DNA of 64,000 nucleotides, from assembly GCA_016791115.1 (NCBI GenBank), contig JAEUNL010000043.1, positions 1-64,000 of the forward strand. Direction: 5' to 3'. The notes below the pieces were generated by a model. That model was given only the letters and a program-made list of their open reading frames with translations, ran no database searches and had not been told where the DNA came from. Origin of the DNA: Rhodocyclaceae bacterium. Lineage in GTDB: Bacteria > Pseudomonadota > Gammaproteobacteria > Burkholderiales > Rhodocyclaceae. Both the position numbers and the translations under genes were made by a program. Shown here piece after piece: positions 44,107 to 54,688 of the stretch (positions are counted from its first letter, which is position 1; each line of letters starts with the position of its first letter).

Positions 44107-45468
44107 TCAAGCCGCGGGCATGCTTGCGGCGCCCGGCCTGGCAAGCGGCAGGCTGATCGCGACCGTCAGGCCAGGCTCGGGGCGGTTGCGGGCCACGATG
44201 GCACCGCCGTGCGCCTCGACCGCACGGCGCGCAATCGCCAGGCCAAGCCCGAAACCGCCCGACGCGTTCGCGTTGGCGCCGCGGTAGAACGGCTCGAAGA
44301 CCGAGCCGAGATCCTGCTCGGCAATGCCCGGACCACGATCCGACACCTCGATGCGGACAGACTGGCCTTGCGCTTCGGATTGAATCGACACGTCGACGCT
44401 AGAACCCTCCGCCGAGTACTTGACCGCGTTGCGGATGACATTCTCGAGGGCACGATGCAGCAACTCGACGCTGCCGTCGATGATGATTTCGTCGCCGGCA
44501 GCGAACGTAATGTCCCGACCCTTCGCCTGGGCTTCGAATCGCGCGTCGTCCACCACCGATGCCACCAGTTCGACCAGGTCGAAGTGCTCGCGTCGCAGCG
44601 TACCGGTGCCCGCCTCCAGTCGCGACAGGGTAAGGAGTTCGCCGACCAGTTCGTCGAGCCGCTGCGACTCGCGTTCGATGCGATCGAGCGAAGCTTCGAT
44701 CTTCTGCGGGTTCTGGCGCGCCAGCCCGACCGCCGCCTGCAGGCGCGCTAGGGGCGAACGCAGTTCGTGCGACACGTCGTGCAACAACCGGCGCTGCGAT
44801 CCGACCAGCCCCTGCAATCGCTGCGCCATGCGATCGAAATCCCGCCCCAGATCCGCCATCTCGTCGCGGCGCGAACCCATGCGCGGCGCAACGCGCGTGT
44901 CCAGCCGTCCCGCAGCGACGCCCTCGAACGCCCAGCGCAGGTTGCGAATCGGCTTGGCGAGATACCAGGCGCCGAGCGCGCTGAAAGCGAGCCCCGCCAG
45001 CAGCACGGCGGCCAGTGGTGGCCAGGGTGGCGGGGGCCGGTGAAAGTGCGGACGCGGCGGGAGCAATTCCGGTGGCAGGAACACGAGATAGCGCCTGCCA
45101 TCCGGCGCCACCACCCGGCGCACGAGTTGGCCGGGCAACGCGGCCGATTCGTCCGCACGCGCACGTTCGATCTGTCCTGCGCTGACATGCCGGCCGAGCA
45201 GTTCGCGACCCTCTTCGTCGACAATGCGCAGCGCCTGCGTGCGGCCATCGACCAGCTCGGCCGCCCAGGTGCCGACGGCAGCGCTTCCGCCACTCGCCAG
45301 CAACGCGGCGGCGGAGCGGATCAGCGTGTCGCCGCCCGGACCGCCCGGCGGTGGCGTACGCTCCTGTTCGCCACTGTTGTGCAGCCAGACGACTGTTCCG
45401 ACACCGGCCCCGGCGATCAGCAGTGAGACGAGGAATGCAAGCAGGAACTTCCAGAACAGGCGCCCCAT
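44107..45468 (-). CDS. cpxA: CpxA-like sensor histidine kinase
   Basis: 453 residues. TM1 is MGRLFWKFLLAFLVSLLIAG; a periplasmic domain of about 120 residues follows; TM2 is WPPLAAVLLAGLAFSALGAW. HAMP (LAKPIRNLRWAFEGVAAGRL) precedes the phospho-His in LLHDVSHELRSPLARLQ. HATPase motifs: VIRNAVKYS, DRGPGIA, GGFGLGLAIARRA. The start MGRLFWKF is chosen so that TM1 begins the protein. It lies 77 bp after cpxR. It is convergent with mmsA. Confidence 0.87.
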   Translation of the reverse strand: MGRLFWKFLLAFLVSLLIAGAGVGTVVWLHNSGEQERTPPPGGPGGDTLIRSAAALLASGGSAAVGTWAAELVDGRTQALRIVDEEGRELLGRHVSAGQIERARADESAALPGQLVRRVVAPDGRRYLVFLPPELLPPRPHFHRPPPPWPPLAAVLLAGLAFSALGAWYLAKPIRNLRWAFEGVAAGRLDTRVAPRMGSRRDEMADLGRDFDRMAQRLQGLVGSQRRLLHDVSHELRSPLARLQAAVGLARQNPQKIEASLDRIERESQRLDELVGELLTLSRLEAGTGTLRREHFDLVELVASVVDDARFEAQAKGRDITFAAGDEIIIDGSVELLHRALENVIRNAVKYSAEGSSVDVSIQSEAQGQSVRIEVSDRGPGIAEQDLGSVFEPFYRGANANASGGFGLGLAIARRAVEAHGGAIVARNRPEPGLTVAISLPLARPGAASMPAA

Positions 45469-45545
45469 GTCACGCCGCTCCCTGCCGCACGACGCACCAA
45501 CCGCAACCGACGAATGCGGCCTGCAACGATGCAAGCGGGCTCATG

Positions 45546-46235: not shown

Positions 46236-46304
46236 CTTTCCCTTCCGCGGCCTGCACCTGAAACGCCTCGCATCATAAGCGCGCGATCGGGCCGGTAATG
46301 GGAA

Positions 46305-46329
46305 TTTACTGCTCTTTACCCAGCTTTAC
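46305..46329. promoter_or_regulatory. Triple CpxR box between cpxR and the protease gene
   Basis: TTTAC occurs at 46305, 46315 and 46325, exactly ten bases apart, giving two overlapping copies of the CpxR consensus GTAAA-N5-GTAAA on the minus strand. It lies about 70 bases from each divergent start (46235 and 46401). Confidence 0.75.
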
Positions 46330-46400
46330 AGTGAGGAAACCCGGTTTTAACAGGTGCCGGGAGACAATGCCTCATCGACGCCCCTGGCGAAAGGATTTGC

Positions 46401-47936
46401 ATGTTCGCGCAATCGCATGCCACCACTGTGCAGCGCAGGGCCATCGCCTTCGCGCTCTGCCTGTGCATGGCCGCACCTGCCCTGCCCCAGAATGCGCCGC
46501 TGCCGGCGCCGTTGCCGGACTTGGGCGACGCCTCGGAATCCACGCTGTCGCGCGCTGCCGAGCGTGCGCTGGGGCGCGAAACGATGCGCAGCGCCCGGGC
46601 CCAGGGCGCGGTGCTCGACGACCCGGAAGTCAACGACTACCTGCAGACGCTGGGGCAGCGGCTGGTGGCGGCCGATCCGACGATCAACGAGAAGTTCGAG
46701 TTCTTCGCTGTCGGGGCGTCCGAGATCAATGCGTTCGCCCTCCCCGGCGGACATGTCGGCGTGAACACCGGGCTGATACTCGCGGCACAGAGCGAATCCG
46801 AACTGGCTTCCGTCCTGGCGCATGAAATCTCCCACGTCTCTCAGCACCACATCGCCCGGCAGTATGCGGCGCAGACGCGCGCCGGCTACGCCTCGCTCGC
46901 TGCCATGCTGCTCGCGATCATCGCCGGCGGCCGGGGAGACGTCGCGATTGCCGCGATCACCGGTGCCAACGCAGCCCAGGCGCAGGCCGCCATCAACTAC
47001 ACGCGGGAGCATGAACACGAGGCCGACCGCGTCGGATTCACGCTGCTGGAACGCGCCGGCTTCGACCCGCGCGCAATGGCAAGCTTCTTCGAGCGTCTGC
47101 AGCAGCAAACGCGCGTCCTCGACGGCAACGCACCGGTCTGGCTGCGAACCCACCCCCTGACGCAAACGCGCATCGCCGAAGCGCAGGACCGCGCATTCGA
47201 CAAGACCTACCGCCAGGTTCCGGACAGCCAGGAATTCCAGATGGTGCGTGCGCTGCTTCGCAGTTATGAAGGCGACGCAGCGCAGGCCGTGGCACGGCTC
47301 GCAGCCGAACTCAAGGAGGGTCGCTACCGGGACCGCACCGCCGCGCGATACGGCCATGCCGCCGCGCTGTTGCGCGCCAAGGATCTCGTCCGCGCGAAAA
47401 CCGAAGTCGATACACTCGAACGCGACGGCATGCGTCATCCGATGATAGAAGCACTTGCGGGACTGATCCTGCAGCAATCCCGCGACTATGCAGGCGCAAT
47501 CGCACGCTACGAGGCAGCGCTCAAGCGCTACCCCGACCATCTGCAACTGGTCTACGACTATCCGCGGACCCTTCTGCTGGCCGGAGACCCCGCCCGCGCA
47601 GTCAGGTTTGCGGAGGACCGGCTACTGCGCCGCACAGACGACGGCGACCTGCACCAGATGGCGGCCGAAGGCTACGCAGCACTGGGCCAGCCGATGCAAT
47701 CGCACTACCACCAGGGCGAGTATTACGCGGCACAAGGCAACACCAAGGGCGCGATCGAGCAACTCGAACTTGCCACGCGCATGCGCGGCGGCGATTACCG
47801 CGTCATGCTGATCGCCGAATCGCGCCTGCGCGAATTGCGCGAACAGCAGCGCGAGATCCTCAAGACCGGGCGCGCGTCGGCCTCGGCCGCGATATCGGCG
47901 CGTTCACCTTCCTTACGCGCATTTACACGGGACTGA
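46401..47936 (+). CDS. bepA: BepA/YfgC-like M48 metalloprotease with TPR domain
   Basis: 511 residues with a signal peptide (residues about 10-29, AIAFALCLCMAAPALPQ). The M48 zinc site is VLAHEISHVSQHH with the third ligand in EHEADRVGF; the His-plug region RTHPLTQTRI follows. A C-terminal TPR region (about 290-490) recognises clients. BepA is a periplasmic chaperone-protease for outer-membrane proteins such as LptD. GAAAGGA precedes the ATG. CpxR boxes upstream imply envelope-stress control. Confidence 0.88.
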   Translation: MFAQSHATTVQRRAIAFALCLCMAAPALPQNAPLPAPLPDLGDASESTLSRAAERALGRETMRSARAQGAVLDDPEVNDYLQTLGQRLVAADPTINEKFEFFAVGASEINAFALPGGHVGVNTGLILAAQSESELASVLAHEISHVSQHHIARQYAAQTRAGYASLAAMLLAIIAGGRGDVAIAAITGANAAQAQAAINYTREHEHEADRVGFTLLERAGFDPRAMASFFERLQQQTRVLDGNAPVWLRTHPLTQTRIAEAQDRAFDKTYRQVPDSQEFQMVRALLRSYEGDAAQAVARLAAELKEGRYRDRTAARYGHAAALLRAKDLVRAKTEVDTLERDGMRHPMIEALAGLILQQSRDYAGAIARYEAALKRYPDHLQLVYDYPRTLLLAGDPARAVRFAEDRLLRRTDDGDLHQMAAEGYAALGQPMQSHYHQGEYYAAQGNTKGAIEQLELATRMRGGDYRVMLIAESRLRELREQQREILKTGRASASAAISARSPSLRAFTRD

Positions 47937-47946
47937 CGCCGTTTAA
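47912..47946. promoter_or_regulatory. CpxR box upstream of the Spy-like gene
   Basis: CTTAC (47912) and TTTAC (47922) are spaced ten bases apart, matching GTAAA-N5-GTAAA with one mismatch on the minus strand; a phased TTTAA follows at 47942. The site overlaps the end of the protease gene, 75-110 bases before the Spy-like ATG. Confidence 0.55.
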
Positions 47947-48020
47947 CCGGCATTCGCCGCAACATGGCAACGCAGCGAGACAGCGCATTTGCATCCAGGA
48001 AAATCCGACCGGAGCCGACA

Positions 48021-48617
48021 ATGAACCAGCACAAATCAATCGTCAAACACTTCCTCGCCGCCAGTGCGCTCGCGTTCGCCCTGCCGATGACGGCCTTCGC
48101 CGACCCCGGCTTCGACGGCGGAACGGGAATGGGTCAGGGTCCGGGCGGCGGCATGATGCATGGCGGCCATCAGGCCCGCCACGGTGCCGGCATGATGCCG
48201 CTGCTGCATCAGCTCGACCTGAGCGAAGCGCAGCAGGACAAGGTGTTCGCCATCATGCACGCACAGGCGCCGCTGATGCGCGAACAGGCCAAGATCGCCC
48301 ACAAGGCACACAAGGAACTGCGCGAACTCGCCTTCGCGGAAAAACTCGACGATGCGAAAGCGCGTTCGCTGGCACACACGGAAGGGCGTGCCCATGCCGA
48401 AATGGCCCTGCTTCGCACCAGGACGGCGCAACAGATCTTCGCCCTGCTGACACCCGAGCAGCGCAAGCAGGCGCTGGATCTCAAGGCGCGACATGCCGAC
48501 ATGCCCCGCGGCATGGGTCCGGGCGCCAACCGCCACATGGGCATGGGCCGCGGCCCCGGCAGGCAAGGCGGCCCCGGGGATCGCTGGACCCCGCCGGGCC
48601 CGCGCGGCGACCTGTAA
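48021..48617 (+). CDS. Spy/CpxP-family periplasmic chaperone
   Basis: 198 residues. The signal peptide is KHFLAASALAFALPMTAFA; a Met/Gly/His-rich segment (GTGMGQGPGGGMMHGGHQAR) precedes the helical Spy domain (LLHQLDLSEAQQDKVFAIMH, with the LTxxQ motif in LTPEQRKQALDLKAR). A Met/Gly/Pro-rich tail follows. Spy/CpxP proteins bind unfolded periplasmic proteins and are classic Cpx targets, consistent with the upstream box. The Met/His-rich ends suggest copper or other metal binding (inference). Confidence 0.85.
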   Translation: MNQHKSIVKHFLAASALAFALPMTAFADPGFDGGTGMGQGPGGGMMHGGHQARHGAGMMPLLHQLDLSEAQQDKVFAIMHAQAPLMREQAKIAHKAHKELRELAFAEKLDDAKARSLAHTEGRAHAEMALLRTRTAQQIFALLTPEQRKQALDLKARHADMPRGMGPGANRHMGMGRGPGRQGGPGDRWTPPGPRGDL

Positions 48618-48629
48618 GGCCGCCCAGGC

Positions 48630-49862
48630 ATGAAGCGCGCAGTTCGACGCACCGCGGGTGCGAGGACGGCATGCGTCGGCGTGATCGGGCTTGCGCTCCT
48701 GCTGGGGGGCTGCAGCGGCCCTGCGCCACGCGACCGCGCCCGCGCGCATCCAGCACACGAGCAGCAGATGCGCCAGTTCGCGCAGCGCGGTTACCCTGCA
48801 CAAGCGCGTCACGCCTTCGATACGGCGACGGACCGATGGTCGGTCGATGGAGGCGAGATCGATATCGTGCTGCTGGTACCGACACCTCACGAAAAGGGCG
48901 CCGACGGCCCCTTTCCGCTGGTGCTGTACCTGCCCGGACTCGGCGAATCCGCTGCCGCGGGCTCGTTCTGGCGGGAGGCATGGGCGTCGGCCGGTTATGC
49001 AGTGGCGAGCGTACAACCTGCTGCGAACGGCCCGGCCTTCCGCAACTTGCCGGATGCCCGAAATGGCGATATGACGCGCATTGCACGCAAACAGTTCGGC
49101 AGCGAATCGCTGAACGTGCGAGTGGCCGCCGTCCGGTTCGTCCATCGCGAACTGACGCGGCGGGCATCGCAGGGAAACCCGCCCTATGCACGCATCGCAC
49201 CGTCGCGCTTCGTCGTTACCGGCTATGACCTCGGCGCGCAGACCGCCTATGCGCTCGCCGGCGAGCAATCGCCACAGCGCACTGCCTCGCCGGCCCTGCC
49301 CGGCATCCAGGGCGCAGTCGCGCTGAGTCCCTACGTGGTCGCGGCCGCAGGCGGATTCGAGCAGCGATATGCCGCCATCCGCGCGCCAACGCTCTCGGTG
49401 ACCGGTGCGGAGGATCGGGACAGCCACGGCATCGGCACCTCGCCGTCGGCTCGCCAGGCGCCGTTCCGGTTCGGCACCGGCCCGGCCCATCTGCTGACCC
49501 TCGATGGCATCAGCCACCGCACGCTGGCAGGCAATCCCGATGACCCGGCGAACGACTCCGGCGATCGCAAAGAGTCAGCGCCAAGGGCCTCGCAACGCGA
49601 AGCGCCGGGGCCGTCGCGCGGCGAGGGCGGCCGCCGCGGGCAGGCAGGCGGGCCGCAAGGCGACGGACCGAGCGGCGGAAACGGGATGTCGCAGATCCCC
49701 CATGCGCTGGCCGACGTCGCGCGGCAGCGCATCGCCGTCCAGCAGGTCACGCTGGCATTTCTCGACGCCACCCTGCGCGACGATGCGATTGCGCGCGAAT
49801 GGCTGGAGCGGAATGCACCGGCCTGGCTCGATCCGATTGCAGGACTCCAGACACGAAAATGA
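48630..49862 (+). CDS. Lipoprotein alpha/beta hydrolase with atypical Asp nucleophile
   Basis: 410 residues. Lipobox LALLLGGCSG makes it a lipoprotein. The hydrolase fold shows FPLVLYLPGLGESAAAGSFW (oxyanion region), RFVVTGYDLGAQTAYALAGE at the nucleophile elbow, and a histidine in TLDGISHRTLAG. The elbow reads G-Y-D-L-G, with Asp where esterases have Ser and dienelactone hydrolases have Cys. A 65-residue Gly/Arg/Pro-rich low-complexity insert (about 307-350) is unusual. It lies 12 bp after the Spy gene and overlaps the start of the next gene by four bases. Function unknown. Confidence 0.7.
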   Translation: MKRAVRRTAGARTACVGVIGLALLLGGCSGPAPRDRARAHPAHEQQMRQFAQRGYPAQARHAFDTATDRWSVDGGEIDIVLLVPTPHEKGADGPFPLVLYLPGLGESAAAGSFWREAWASAGYAVASVQPAANGPAFRNLPDARNGDMTRIARKQFGSESLNVRVAAVRFVHRELTRRASQGNPPYARIAPSRFVVTGYDLGAQTAYALAGEQSPQRTASPALPGIQGAVALSPYVVAAAGGFEQRYAAIRAPTLSVTGAEDRDSHGIGTSPSARQAPFRFGTGPAHLLTLDGISHRTLAGNPDDPANDSGDRKESAPRASQREAPGPSRGEGGRRGQAGGPQGDGPSGGNGMSQIPHALADVARQRIAVQQVTLAFLDATLRDDAIAREWLERNAPAWLDPIAGLQTRK

Positions 49863-51343
49863 ACAAACTTATGCCAACCAGGAAAACATGGCCGGTAGCC
49901 TTGGCCGCCGCCTTGCTGATCGGTGGCTGCGCGGCTGTCGGACCGGACTATCGCGCACCGGCGGTGCAGACGCCTGCCGCCTGGTCTCGCCAGCCTGGCG
50001 CAGGCGCAGCCATCGGCACAATCGATGCAGCGAATCTCGCGCAATGGTGGCAGCAGCTCGACGACCCGCTGCTGACCGGGTTGATCGAAGAAGCGCTCGC
50101 GAGCAGCCCCGATGTACGCAGTGCCCGCGCGAAGCTGCGCGAAGCAAGGGCGCGGCGCGATCTCGCCTCGGCCGATCGCCTGCCCGCAGTCGGCGCGTCC
50201 GCCAACGCATCGCGCGCGAAAAGCAGTGCGCAGGCAGGCAGCGGGACCACGAGTTCGCACTACGACGCCGGCTTCGACGCCTCGTGGGAGATCGACTTGT
50301 TCGGCGGACAGCGCCGCGCTGTCGAAGCTGCGCAGGCCGATCTCGATGCCGGCGCTGCAGATCTCGATGCCGCACGGGTCACGCTGGCGGCCGAAGTGGC
50401 ACGAAACTACGTCGAGTTGCGCAGCGCGCAGCAGCGGCTCGCGATTGCACGCGACAACCTCGCGTCGCAGGGCGACACACTGCAGATCACCGACTGGCGC
50501 AACCAGGCAGGCCTCGCCAGCACACTCGATGTCGAGCAGGCCCGCACGACGCGCGAGCAGACGCGTGCGCAGATTCCGGTGCTGGAAACCACGCTCGCAC
50601 AAAGCGCAAACCGCCTCGCGATACTGCTCGGCAAGACGCCCGGAAGCCTGGACGATCGGCTGGATGCGCCTGCCGCCATCCCGGCGCCTTCGAAGGGCCT
50701 GGCGATCGGCATCCCTGCCGACACGCTGCGCCAGCGTCCCGACGTGCTGGCGGCGGAACGCCGCCTCGCGGCCCAGACCGCGCGAATCGGCGTCGCGGAG
50801 GCAGCACGCTGGCCGAGCCTGAGCCTCTCCGGGTCGATCGGCCTCGAAGCCCTGACCACCGGCGGCCTGACGGCCGCAGGCGCCGTGGCGCGATCGGTTG
50901 CGGCTTCGATTGCCGGCACGCTGTTCGACGGCGGACGTCTCAGGCAACAGGTCGAGATCCAGGATGCGCTGCGCGAACAGACGGCAGTCGCCTACGAGCA
51001 GGCCGTCCTCGCCGCGCTCGAAGATGTCGAGAACGCCTTGGTATCACTCGGCAATGCCCAACGACGCCGGGACGCGCTCGAGGCAGCGTCGGAGTCGGCG
51101 CACAACGCCGCGCTGCTTGCGCAGCACCGCTACGCTGCCGGGCTGACCGATTTCCAGTCGGTACTCGACACCTCGCGCACGGTGCTCAATGTGGAGGATA
51201 GTCGCGCCAGCGCACAGGCGGAACAGGCAACGGCCCTGATCCAGCTCTACAAGGCACTGGGCGGCGGATGGCACGCGGCTGCAGCGACGCCATACAGCCC
51301 CGGAACTACCGGCCGCAACGGATCCGACAACGGACAATCATGA
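49859..51343 (+). CDS. NodT-family outer-membrane efflux lipoprotein
   Basis: 494 residues. The lipobox LAAALLIGGCAAVGPDYRAP is the standard NodT/OprM N-terminus. Two OEP repeats follow, each with DLFGGQRRAVEAAQADLDA-type and FDGGRLRQQVEIQDALREQ-type helices. It forms a trimeric TolC-like outer-membrane duct. Its ATG overlaps the previous stop and its end overlaps macA, giving a tightly coupled exporter operon. Confidence 0.92.
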   Translation: MNKLMPTRKTWPVALAAALLIGGCAAVGPDYRAPAVQTPAAWSRQPGAGAAIGTIDAANLAQWWQQLDDPLLTGLIEEALASSPDVRSARAKLREARARRDLASADRLPAVGASANASRAKSSAQAGSGTTSSHYDAGFDASWEIDLFGGQRRAVEAAQADLDAGAADLDAARVTLAAEVARNYVELRSAQQRLAIARDNLASQGDTLQITDWRNQAGLASTLDVEQARTTREQTRAQIPVLETTLAQSANRLAILLGKTPGSLDDRLDAPAAIPAPSKGLAIGIPADTLRQRPDVLAAERRLAAQTARIGVAEAARWPSLSLSGSIGLEALTTGGLTAAGAVARSVAASIAGTLFDGGRLRQQVEIQDALREQTAVAYEQAVLAALEDVENALVSLGNAQRRRDALEAASESAHNAALLAQHRYAAGLTDFQSVLDTSRTVLNVEDSRASAQAEQATALIQLYKALGGGWHAAAATPYSPGTTGRNGSDNGQS

Positions 51344-52664
51344 ATACCGCCACAGAAACCGGCGCAACCCGCGCAATCGAAACTGCCGTTCTTGGCACGT
51401 CGAACAACGGCCTCGGGTGGCAACGCAACGTGAAGCGCATCGCCGTACTCGCACTGGCCGTCGGCATTGCGGCCGGAATCGGCGTCTGGCTGATGCGCGG
51501 CAAGGCCGCGGTTCAGCCGAGCTACATCACCGAGCCCGTGACCCGTGGCAAGCTCAGCGTGACCGTAACGGCGAACGGCACCCTGGCACCGACGCGAACC
51601 GTGAACATCGGCAGCGAACTCTCCGGCACCGTGTCGCGCGTGCTGGTCGACATCAACGACGTGGTGAAAAAGGGCCAATTGCTGCTCGAGCTCGACACCA
51701 CCAAGTTGCGCGACCAGATCCGGCGATCCCGCGCGTCGCTCGCACAGGCGGAGGCCAAGGTAGCGCAATCGCAGGCGACGGTTCGCGAGGCGCAGGCAGG
51801 CCTTGCGCGCCTGGAAGAAGTGGCGCGGCTGTCCGGCGGCAAGGTGCCCTCGAAGGCCGAACTCGACGGCAGCCGCGCGACCCTCGACCGTGCACAAGCC
51901 GACGAGGCCGCGGCGAGGGCCGCGGTCGCGGACGCTCGTGCCGCCTTGTCCACCGACGAAACCAACCTCGCCAAGGCGTCGATCCGCTCGCCGATAGACG
52001 GCACGGTGCTGACGCGAGCGGTAGAACCGGGCAACGCAGTGGCCGCCTCGCTCCAGGCTGTCACGCTGCTGACGATTGCGGAAGATCTGTCGAAGCTCAA
52101 GTTGCAGGTCAACGTGGACGAAGCCGACGTCGGCATGGTGAAACCGGGCCTGCGGGCAGATTTCACCGTAAGCGCCTGGCCCCGTCGCAAGTTTCCGGCC
52201 AGCATCACGCGCGTCGCCTACGGCTCGACGACGACCGACAACGTGGTCACCTACATTACCTACCTCGACGTGGACAACCCGGACCTGAGCCTGCGCCCGG
52301 GCATGACGGCGACTGCCACACTGGTCGCCGCGGAGCGGCAGGATGCGATGCTGGTGCCGAACACCGCACTGCGCTTCTCGCCGACGCAAAGCCCCACGGG
52401 AAAAACTGGCGCCTCGGGCAGCAAGCCAGGAACCGGCATCGTCGCCAGCCTCGTGCCGCGCCCGCCAAGCGGCAACGCATCGCGCCGCGCCGCCAATTCG
52501 ACCAACACCGGCAGCGCGCGCCAGGTGTGGGTGCTGCGCGAGGGCCAGCCCGTGCCGATTCCGATCGCGCCAGGCGTAAGCGACGGGCGCATGACTGAAG
52601 TCAACGCGCCGGAACTCCAGCCCGGCATGGAGGTGATCACCGACCAACGCGCCGGAGCACCGCA

Positions 52665-52668
<4 letters not shown>
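51340..52668 (+). CDS. macA: MacA-like periplasmic adaptor (membrane fusion protein)
   Basis: 442 residues. N-terminal TM (RIAVLALAVGIAAGIGVWLM), lipoyl halves around a helical hairpin (VSRVLVDINDVVKKGQLLLE; ASIRSPIDGTVLTRAVEPGN), beta-barrel and membrane-proximal domains. A Ser/Gly/Asn-rich insert of about 50 residues near residue 350 is uncommon for MacA. It links MacB to the NodT duct. ATG overlaps the previous stop; its TGA overlaps the GTG of the ATPase gene. Confidence 0.9.
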
Positions 52669-53479
<811 letters not shown>

Positions 53480-53480
<1 letters not shown>

Positions 53481-54688
53481 TGTTGCTCAACACCCTGCTC
53501 CTGGCGCTGCGCGAGATTCGTCGCAACCTCATGCGCTCCTTTCTCACGATCCTCGGCATCGTCATCGGCGTCGCCGCGGTGATCACCATGGTCACGCTCG
53601 GCAATGGCGCAACGCGCGCGGTGCAGGACCAGATATCCAGCCTCGGCAGCAACCTGCTGATGGTGCTGCCCGGCCAGCGGCTCGGGCCGGGCATGCCGAC
53701 GGCAGGCGCCCCGCTGTTCAAGGAGGCCGACGTCGAGGCGATCGCCAGCCAGATCGGCGGCATCAATGCGGTAGCGCCCGAGGTACGCGCGGCGGTCACC
53801 GTGGTTGCCAACGGGCGCAACTGGTCGACCAGCGTGACCGGAACATCGAATGCCTACTTCGAGACGAACAACTGGCGTATCGCCGGCGGCCGCAAATTCG
53901 AGGACAACGAAGAACGCGCGGGTGCTGCGGTTTGTGTGATCGGTGAAACCGTACGGCGCGAACTGTTCGGCACCGGCTCGCCGCTCGGCGAGCACGTGCG
54001 CGTCAAGCAATTCTCCTGCGAGGTGATCGGACTGCTGGCGTCGAAAGGCCAGTCGGCCATGGGGCGCGACCAGGACGATGTCGTCGTGATGCCGCTGCAC
54101 ACCGTGCAGCGGCGTGTCACCGGCAACCAGCGCGTCAACACGCTGCTGGTGTCGTTGCTCGATGGCAGCGATACCGAGCGGGTCAAGGCGAGCCTCACGG
54201 ACCTGATGCGCGAGCGGCGCAAGCTCGCCGACAACGAGGACGACAACTTCAACGTGCTCGACACCAAGCAGCTCGCCGAGACTCTGTCGGGTACCACCAA
54301 GGTGATGACCATGCTGCTCGGTGCTGTCGCGGCCGTCAGCCTGCTGGTCGGCGGCATCGGCATCATGAACATCATGCTGGTCAGTGTCACCGAGCGGACA
54401 CGCGAGATCGGCGTGCGGCTGGCGATTGGCGCGCTGGAGCGCGAGGTGTTGCTGCAGTTTCTCATCGAAGCCGTGGTGCTTGCGGCGCTGGGCGGGCTCG
54501 TCGGCGTGGCGCTGGCGACGATCGCCTCGATCGTGCTGGCGGATGTCATGCAGATTCCCTACCTGTTCAACCCGACGATCAATCTGGTTTCGTTCCTGTT
54601 CTCGGCCGGCATCGGTGTCGTGTTCGGATACTTCCCGGCACGCCGTGCGGCACAGCTCGACCCGATCGAGGCACTGCGGCACGAATAG
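53480..54688 (+). CDS. MacB-type ABC exporter permease
   Basis: 402 residues. Four membrane segments: TM1 near 20-45 (FLTILGIVIGVAAVITMVTL), a periplasmic domain of about 220 residues (MacB_PCD), then TM2-4 (LLGAVAAVSLLVGGIGIMNI, EAVVLAALGGLVGVALATIA, FSAGIGVVFGYFPARRAAQL). The end DPIEALRHE is typical. It drives mechanotransmission export of a peptide, lipid or drug; substrate unknown. Confidence 0.92.

Follow-up and report, generated by a model that had tools for sequence, protein, structure and literature searches.

A conserved array of CpxR-type half-sites between cpxR and a BepA paralogue in a Rhodocyclaceae bacterium as a probable shared activation site of two divergent promoters

Introduction

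In a Rhodocyclaceae bacterium, a cpxR-like gene and a divergently transcribed gene for a BepA-like protease are separated by an intergenic region carrying three evenly phased TTTAC pentamers. The locus lies in a stretch of 64,000 nucleotides (contig JAEUNL010000043.1, positions 1 to 64,000; hereafter the window) and raises the question of whether these pentamers form a CpxR site, which of the two genes such a site would serve, and what the third pentamer contributes. It is highly probable, in our assessment of the sequence comparisons below, that both divergent promoters are activated by CpxR from this one element.

Results and Discussion

The array and the Cpx-type system beside it

The pentamers occupy 46305-46309, 46315-46319 and 46325-46329 of the + strand, exactly 10 bases apart, and the - strand of 46305-46329, which reads GTAAAGCTGGGTAAAGAGCAGTAAA, holds two overlapping GTAAA-N5-GTAAA boxes. 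Both this arrangement and the placement between cpxR and a BepA-like protease gene, as given in the initial annotation, are borne out by the coordinates and the flanking genes (Table 1). The array matches the CpxR-box consensus, a GTAAA-N5-GTAAA direct repeat for which spacings of N4-8 are also allowed in the literature (PMC12802237, PMC5063474, both available in part). The pair was seen in none of 100 dinucleotide shuffles of the window, and the triple, with up to two mismatches allowed, occurs once in the window and in 0 of the 100 shuffles. A fourth exact in-phase pentamer is absent beside the array, and a degenerate box is found instead on the bepA side. Elsewhere in the genome (3.97 Mb in 73 contigs, 92% complete) the exact pair occurs in one place only, on contig C22, as does the triple; this copy was rejected as a Cpx site, since it belongs to a tandem of CCGCGGTAAA within an Rhs-like frame and is taken as unrelated. 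Tandem GTAAACCGCG/GTAAACCGG repeats in an Rhs-like frame give a perfect CpxR triple by accident at L001 (1481-1546). Pairs with one mismatch show no genome-wide enrichment (25 matches versus 40 for the reversed control pattern), and because they are rarer than the reversed controls, a genome-wide regulon built from relaxed pairs was dropped.

The regulator finds its best NCBIfam family in CpxR, at 261.2 bits against a cut-off of 341, and the next family, CreB, scores 195.1 (66 bits lower). The kinase lies below both NCBIfam CpxA cut-offs (281.7 bits for a cut-off of 800 and 243.1 bits for a cut-off of 486) and matches CpxA only from about residue 154, in the cytoplasmic part, its sensor part being unlike CpxA. 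The Spy/CpxP-like protein carries the PF07813 LTXXQ domain (33.1 bits, cut-off 24.3) and scores 57.7 bits with the NCBIfam Spy profile, under its cut-off of 174. The gene order comprises a cpxR-cpxA pair, a divergent LTXXQ gene and a CpxR box between them, with bepA interposed before the LTXXQ gene. Among the matches listed, the closest named relatives of the regulator are from a Rhodocyclales bacterium (78%) and Zoogloea (77%), and the CpxR of one MAG labelled Proteobacteria has 80% identity. Because the NCBIfam cut-offs for CpxR and CpxA are not reached, the initial claim of a true Cpx system in a betaproteobacterium draws on the best family match, the gene order and the sites, which favour a Cpx-type system there.

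Table 1. Features of the cpxR-bepA-spy region, in window coordinates.
Feature	Position	Strand	Basis or remark
cpxA-like sensor kinase gene	44107..45468	-	start picked by eye; 44107-45474 used for search
cpxR-like OmpR/PhoB-family response regulator gene, 229 aa	45546..46235	-	profile match; alignment to E. coli CpxR
Predicted cpxR -10 element TATGAT	46272..46277	-	27 bp after array
Triple CpxR half-site array, GTAAA x3 at 10-bp spacing	46305..46329	-	sequence; kept at cpxR loci
Degenerate (weak) second box, two mismatches to GTWAANCNCGGT	46339..46350	-	bepA side of array
Predicted bepA -10 element GACAAT	46363..46368	+	12 bp after weak box
Cpx-linked BepA paralogue, M48 protease with HEISH motif and TPRs, 511 aa	46401..47936	+	profiles, tree, structures
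Second CpxR box GTAAATGCGCGTAAG, one mismatch	47912..47926	-	before spy-like gene, overlaps bepA 3' end
Weak box of spy promoter	47936..47947	-	extended-pattern match
Predicted spy -10 element CAACAT	47960..47965	+	conserved distance
Spy/CpxP-like LTXXQ periplasmic protein gene	48021..48617	+	profile match
Predicted lipoprotein gene, no Pfam match, probably in same transcript	48630..49862	+	
NodT-type outer-membrane factor, MacA-like adaptor, ABC ATPase and MacB-type permease genes	49799..54688	+	

Conservation of the array at cpxR loci

The comparative set was composed of the best 80 named of at least 566 confirmed relatives and of 84 matches listed in the organism's own family, in which 249 genomes were surveyed and from 77 of which the 84 listed matches come. 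Of the 164 loci fetched, 12 were copies and were removed, leaving 152 distinct cpxR loci that are related to each other and were thinned by identity only. Comparison of these loci finds array position and orientation kept at 125 of the 152, each with a phased GTAAA-N5-GTAAA within 350 bp upstream of cpxR and every array in the orientation of cpxR. A triple is present at 23 loci, a pair at 102 and no exact array at 27, two of which (L154, L189) have a truncated or mis-started cpxR; the triple of L210, 299 bp from cpxR, is not a proximal array. Within 200 bp of cpxR, 167 N5 pairs lie on the strand in cpxR orientation and 0 on the other strand, with 0 for two control patterns, and all other spacings together account for 14 pairs, leaving aside 29 at N15, a spacing to which triples contribute as well. 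The exact triple occurs in 24 of the 249 family genomes, at 30 places with overlaps counted versus 3 for the reversed pattern. Of 28 such loci compared from genomes other than the organism's own, 17 have it near cpxR, including L127 with a distance of about 300 bp, and one more has it at a spy-like gene. Judged by this conservation, the array beside cpxR is not a product of chance.

At the 11 loci with a divergent bepA, the array is a triple in 8, a pair in 2 and degenerate in 1, namely L012, the nearest bepA-type relative, which has degenerate half-sites only. The triple was rejected as a bepA-specific feature on the ground that 13 of the 23 triples face spy without any bepA, the sister CpxR loci L016 (with bepA) and L149 (with spy), both of which carry a triple, being a further counter-case.

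Phasing of the array to the two promoters

On the cpxR side, a TATNAT -10 element follows the array at 91 of the 125 loci, against 2.2% of shuffled tails, and is missing at 34. The distance between the two is 27-30 bp at 45 loci, 35 bp at 1, 37-40 bp at 32, 47-50 bp at 11, and 110 and 171 bp at 1 each. These values repeat with a period of 10.5-10.6 bp (R 0.84 for 90 spacings), a regularity that 0 of 2000 uniform draws attained and that persists in the 49 loci left by thinning at 80% identity. Autoregulation of cpxR through the array, as the initial annotation had suggested, is favoured by this phasing to the cpxR -10 element.

On the bepA/spy side, between -45 and -5 from the first half-site, GTAAA-like pentamers exceed 8% at two offsets only, -21 (56 of 125 loci) and -11 (22 of 125), the mean being 2.8%. 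From these peaks we built the extended pattern GTWAANCNCGGT-N9-GTAAA-N5-GTAAA, a 36-bp module, which with up to three mismatches has two matches only in the organism's own genome, at the bepA and spy promoters (control 0). With up to two mismatches it is found in 41 of the 249 family genomes, with 69 matches among those listed (controls 4), two of them shifted registers of neighbours (G219, G237). Box pattern alone found 125 distinct sites in the compared loci, a sample that is not random because those loci are mostly cpxR neighbourhoods, and thinning left 94. A -10-like element lies 12 bp downstream of the box; its second base is A in 84 of the 94 sites, and its sixth base is T in 85. Over the 94 thinned sites the spacing from weak box to -10 is rigid. 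A -10 bearing both marks (A2, T6) is present at 44 of 48 loci with a weak box versus 16 of 77 without, the two marks alone being loose (10 of the 16 such -10 calls without a weak box). A by-eye assignment of TTTACA within the array as the bepA -35 and of TTTAAC as its -10 was rejected for its 15-bp spacing and in view of the conserved -10 at 46363-46368. The suggestion that the BepA-like gene is under control of the array is likewise favoured, as the array is phased, via the weak box, to the bepA/spy -10. Of six relatives that share this gene order, five have an exact pair as the box before spy, and the sixth, L012, has a degenerate version only.

The two geometries suggest that one shared site drives cpxR and bepA at fixed distances from each promoter. 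From the features observed directly, namely sequence, conservation, spacing rules and paralogy, we infer the following on CpxR binding and phosphorylation, on activation and on what each half-site does. The 10-bp-phased direct repeats would be bound by phosphorylated CpxR, which would activate both divergent promoters. Towards bepA, in the orientation with the T-rich strand forward, the half-sites at 46315-46329 would act with the weak box at 46339-46350, which, 12 bp from the -10 GACAAT, would stand in for a -35 element. In the opposite orientation the array would act towards cpxR, at 27 bp from the -10 TATGAT, and so give autoregulation. The copy of the module before spy would make bepA and spy each Cpx-responsive, so that a BepA-type protease/chaperone and a Spy-type chaperone would both increase under stress. 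Counting against this shared-site model, besides the loci without an exact array or a TATNAT element, the loose two-base mark, the degenerate half-sites of L012 and the unenriched relaxed matches, are a report, available in part, according to which the orientation of its site does not matter to CpxR action (PMC5063474), and the poor quality of the E. coli -10 candidates at the model distances.

The third half-site

A weak box was scored as having at least 8 of the 10 fixed bases. In the 34 weak-box loci where the cpxR -10 is at least 37 bp from the bepA/spy-side pair, the third half-site is exact in 18, matches at 4 of 5 bases in 9 and is lacking in 7, while none of the 8 weak-box loci with a cpxR -10 at 27-30 bp has one. 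For pair loci considered separately, a 4-of-5 third half-site is kept in 9 of 16 with a weak box and a -10 at 37 bp or more, in 0 of 8 with a weak box and a -10 at 27-30 bp and in 3 of 43 without a weak box; the nine cases fall in about three lineages, a relatedness that weakens the comparison. This distribution favours a third half-site that would lengthen the site by one turn towards cpxR. It might instead be functionally redundant, an ordinary two-half-site box driving both genes and the extra pentamer being neutral or slightly helpful. Pairs suffice at 102 of the 152 loci, and because 8 pair-only loci combine a weak box with a cpxR -10 at 27-30 bp, one pair can serve both promoters; the retention of a near-match in 9 of the 16 weak-box pair loci with a distant cpxR -10 speaks against redundancy, which we hold to be possible and on the doubtful side. 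A lengthened site could also be read as two overlapping CpxR registers with a common middle half-site, 46315-46329 being fixed by the weak box for bepA and 46305-46319, 27 bp from the cpxR -10, serving autoregulation. Such registers would not be fillable by one dimer, so the array would balance output (the BepA paralogue) against feedback, in a lineage that has dedicated a duplicated BepA to Cpx control; to this reading we give a tentative credence a little short of even.

The protease is a Cpx-linked BepA paralogue

The window BepA has an M48 peptidase domain with HExxH followed by TPRs, and it matches the BepA structures 6sar and 6ait with E values of 2.2e-58 and 1.1e-52; as an orthologue it scores below the NCBIfam BepA cut-off (346.1 bits versus 570). 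The genome encodes a second, ordinary BepA (G000:C2:6025-7488, L255) with 43% identity to the window copy, and in 7 kb around it the exact CpxR pair is absent. Matches to the window BepA occur in 240 of the 249 family genomes (E values of 1e-40 or lower, with six candidates per genome scored), and copies of more than 50% identity in 9, the next best having 47%. All nine of these copies adjoin cpxR by coordinates, and 8 of the 9 genomes hold a second BepA, the exception being G029 (92% complete). In a tree of 35 proteins the Cpx-linked BepA sequences (11 rows) form one clade with support of 98/99, and HExxH is kept in all. By identity, phylogeny and adjacency, the window BepA is a Cpx-linked paralogue. 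Two of the Cpx-linked proteins (L023, L230) have HETAH, not HEISH, as the HExxH motif. On a quick CpxR tree of 65 loci the linkage of bepA needs 8 changes, which indicates repeated loss or gain; the idea that bepA was inserted once beside cpxR and has stayed unchanged since is thus unsupported, though the BepA proteins are one clade.

How far the shared-site model holds for bepA depends on whether the protease could be a bystander, the array serving cpxR autoregulation only and bepA having its own unrelated promoter and standing there by chance. The 13 spy-facing triples without bepA agree with that, as does the assignment of E. coli bepA to the sigma-E regulon (PMC2731931, PMC4072712, both available in part), but the weak box and -10 at a conserved distance on the bepA side, together with the adjacency of the paralogue to cpxR in 9 of 9 family genomes having it, make a bystander improbable. 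That a different OmpR/PhoB-family regulator occupies the array is more improbable still: direct-repeat sites are common to these regulators and the CpxR-like protein falls under the NCBIfam CpxR cut-off, but CpxR leads the NCBIfam families by 66 bits and the array tracks cpxR orthologues, fits the consensus for CpxR and always points the same way relative to cpxR. With a shared activation site preferred, a BepA duplicate under Cpx, set against E. coli BepA under sigma-E, would mean that each stress response owns a protease copy. A link between CpxR and BepA was not found in the open-licence literature on both, as available in part, nor was a Cpx-linked BepA paralogue in the open-licence literature, subscription papers being outside the scope.

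Comparison with known systems

The papers compared here were available in part, and the likenesses drawn are limited to those parts. At the cpxP-cpxRA locus of E. coli MG1655, as in the window, cpxR and a divergent LTXXQ-family gene flank a CpxR box, and its orientation is the same; the box is a pair facing cpxP there and a triple facing bepA-spy in the window. E. coli MG1655 has its bepA at a separate genomic site, and the gene is counted in the sigma-E regulon (PMC2731931), whereas the window bepA is beside cpxR. In Salmonella, PhoP boxes in the direct orientation are functional 12 or 23 nt away from the -10, and those in the reverse orientation at 27, 37 or 48 nt but with low expression at 28-32 (PMC3335776). 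The Cpx distances, 12 on the bepA side and 27/38/48 reversed on the cpxR side, agree with these within 1-2 bp, and the agreement is good to 1-2 bp only, as PhoP is a different regulator and the box ends are defined differently. ArcA sites include three consecutive direct repeats, some with a distal repeat two turns (22 bp) away (PMC3798270); unlike the window array, they have 11-bp spacing and a different regulator that mainly represses carbon oxidation (PMC3798270). In Pseudomonas aeruginosa, muxA, yceJ and PA3965 each have two CpxR boxes 11 bp apart (PMC12802237 Table 1), which by arithmetic from that table share the middle half-site and make a triple; these sites have N6 spacing, in contrast to N5 in the window, and involve no BepA in the part of PMC12802237 at hand. 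Since ArcA triples are known and CpxR triples are implied in Pseudomonas, the triple is no new kind of site.

The comparison yields a testable promoter rule for where, and in which orientation, CpxR sites must sit to activate two divergent promoters, and the rule holds across beta- and gammaproteobacterial loci; given its likeness to the rule measured for PhoP, it may extend to OmpR/PhoB-family regulators in general. Neither such a spacing rule for CpxR (subscription papers being outside the scope) nor CpxR GTAAA sites in betaproteobacteria were found in the open-licence literature.

Further Cpx modules

The 36-bp module may be usable to predict Cpx targets in Rhodocyclaceae. Eleven further module sites were chosen from the family matches: 8 lie before a NodT-type gene followed by a MacA-like gene, 1 before a spy-like gene and 2 before other genes. 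In other family genomes, modules (L301, L293) precede the genes for a small predicted lipoprotein and for a long, reductase-like membrane protein. Efflux genes homologous to the 49799-54688 set adjoin cpxR in several gammaproteobacterial MAGs. In genome G048, where spy is about 8 kb off, cpxR-bepA and spy each have a triple and a further module follows spy, which puts three Cpx modules within 9 kb (L257, G048:C22:399500-412500).
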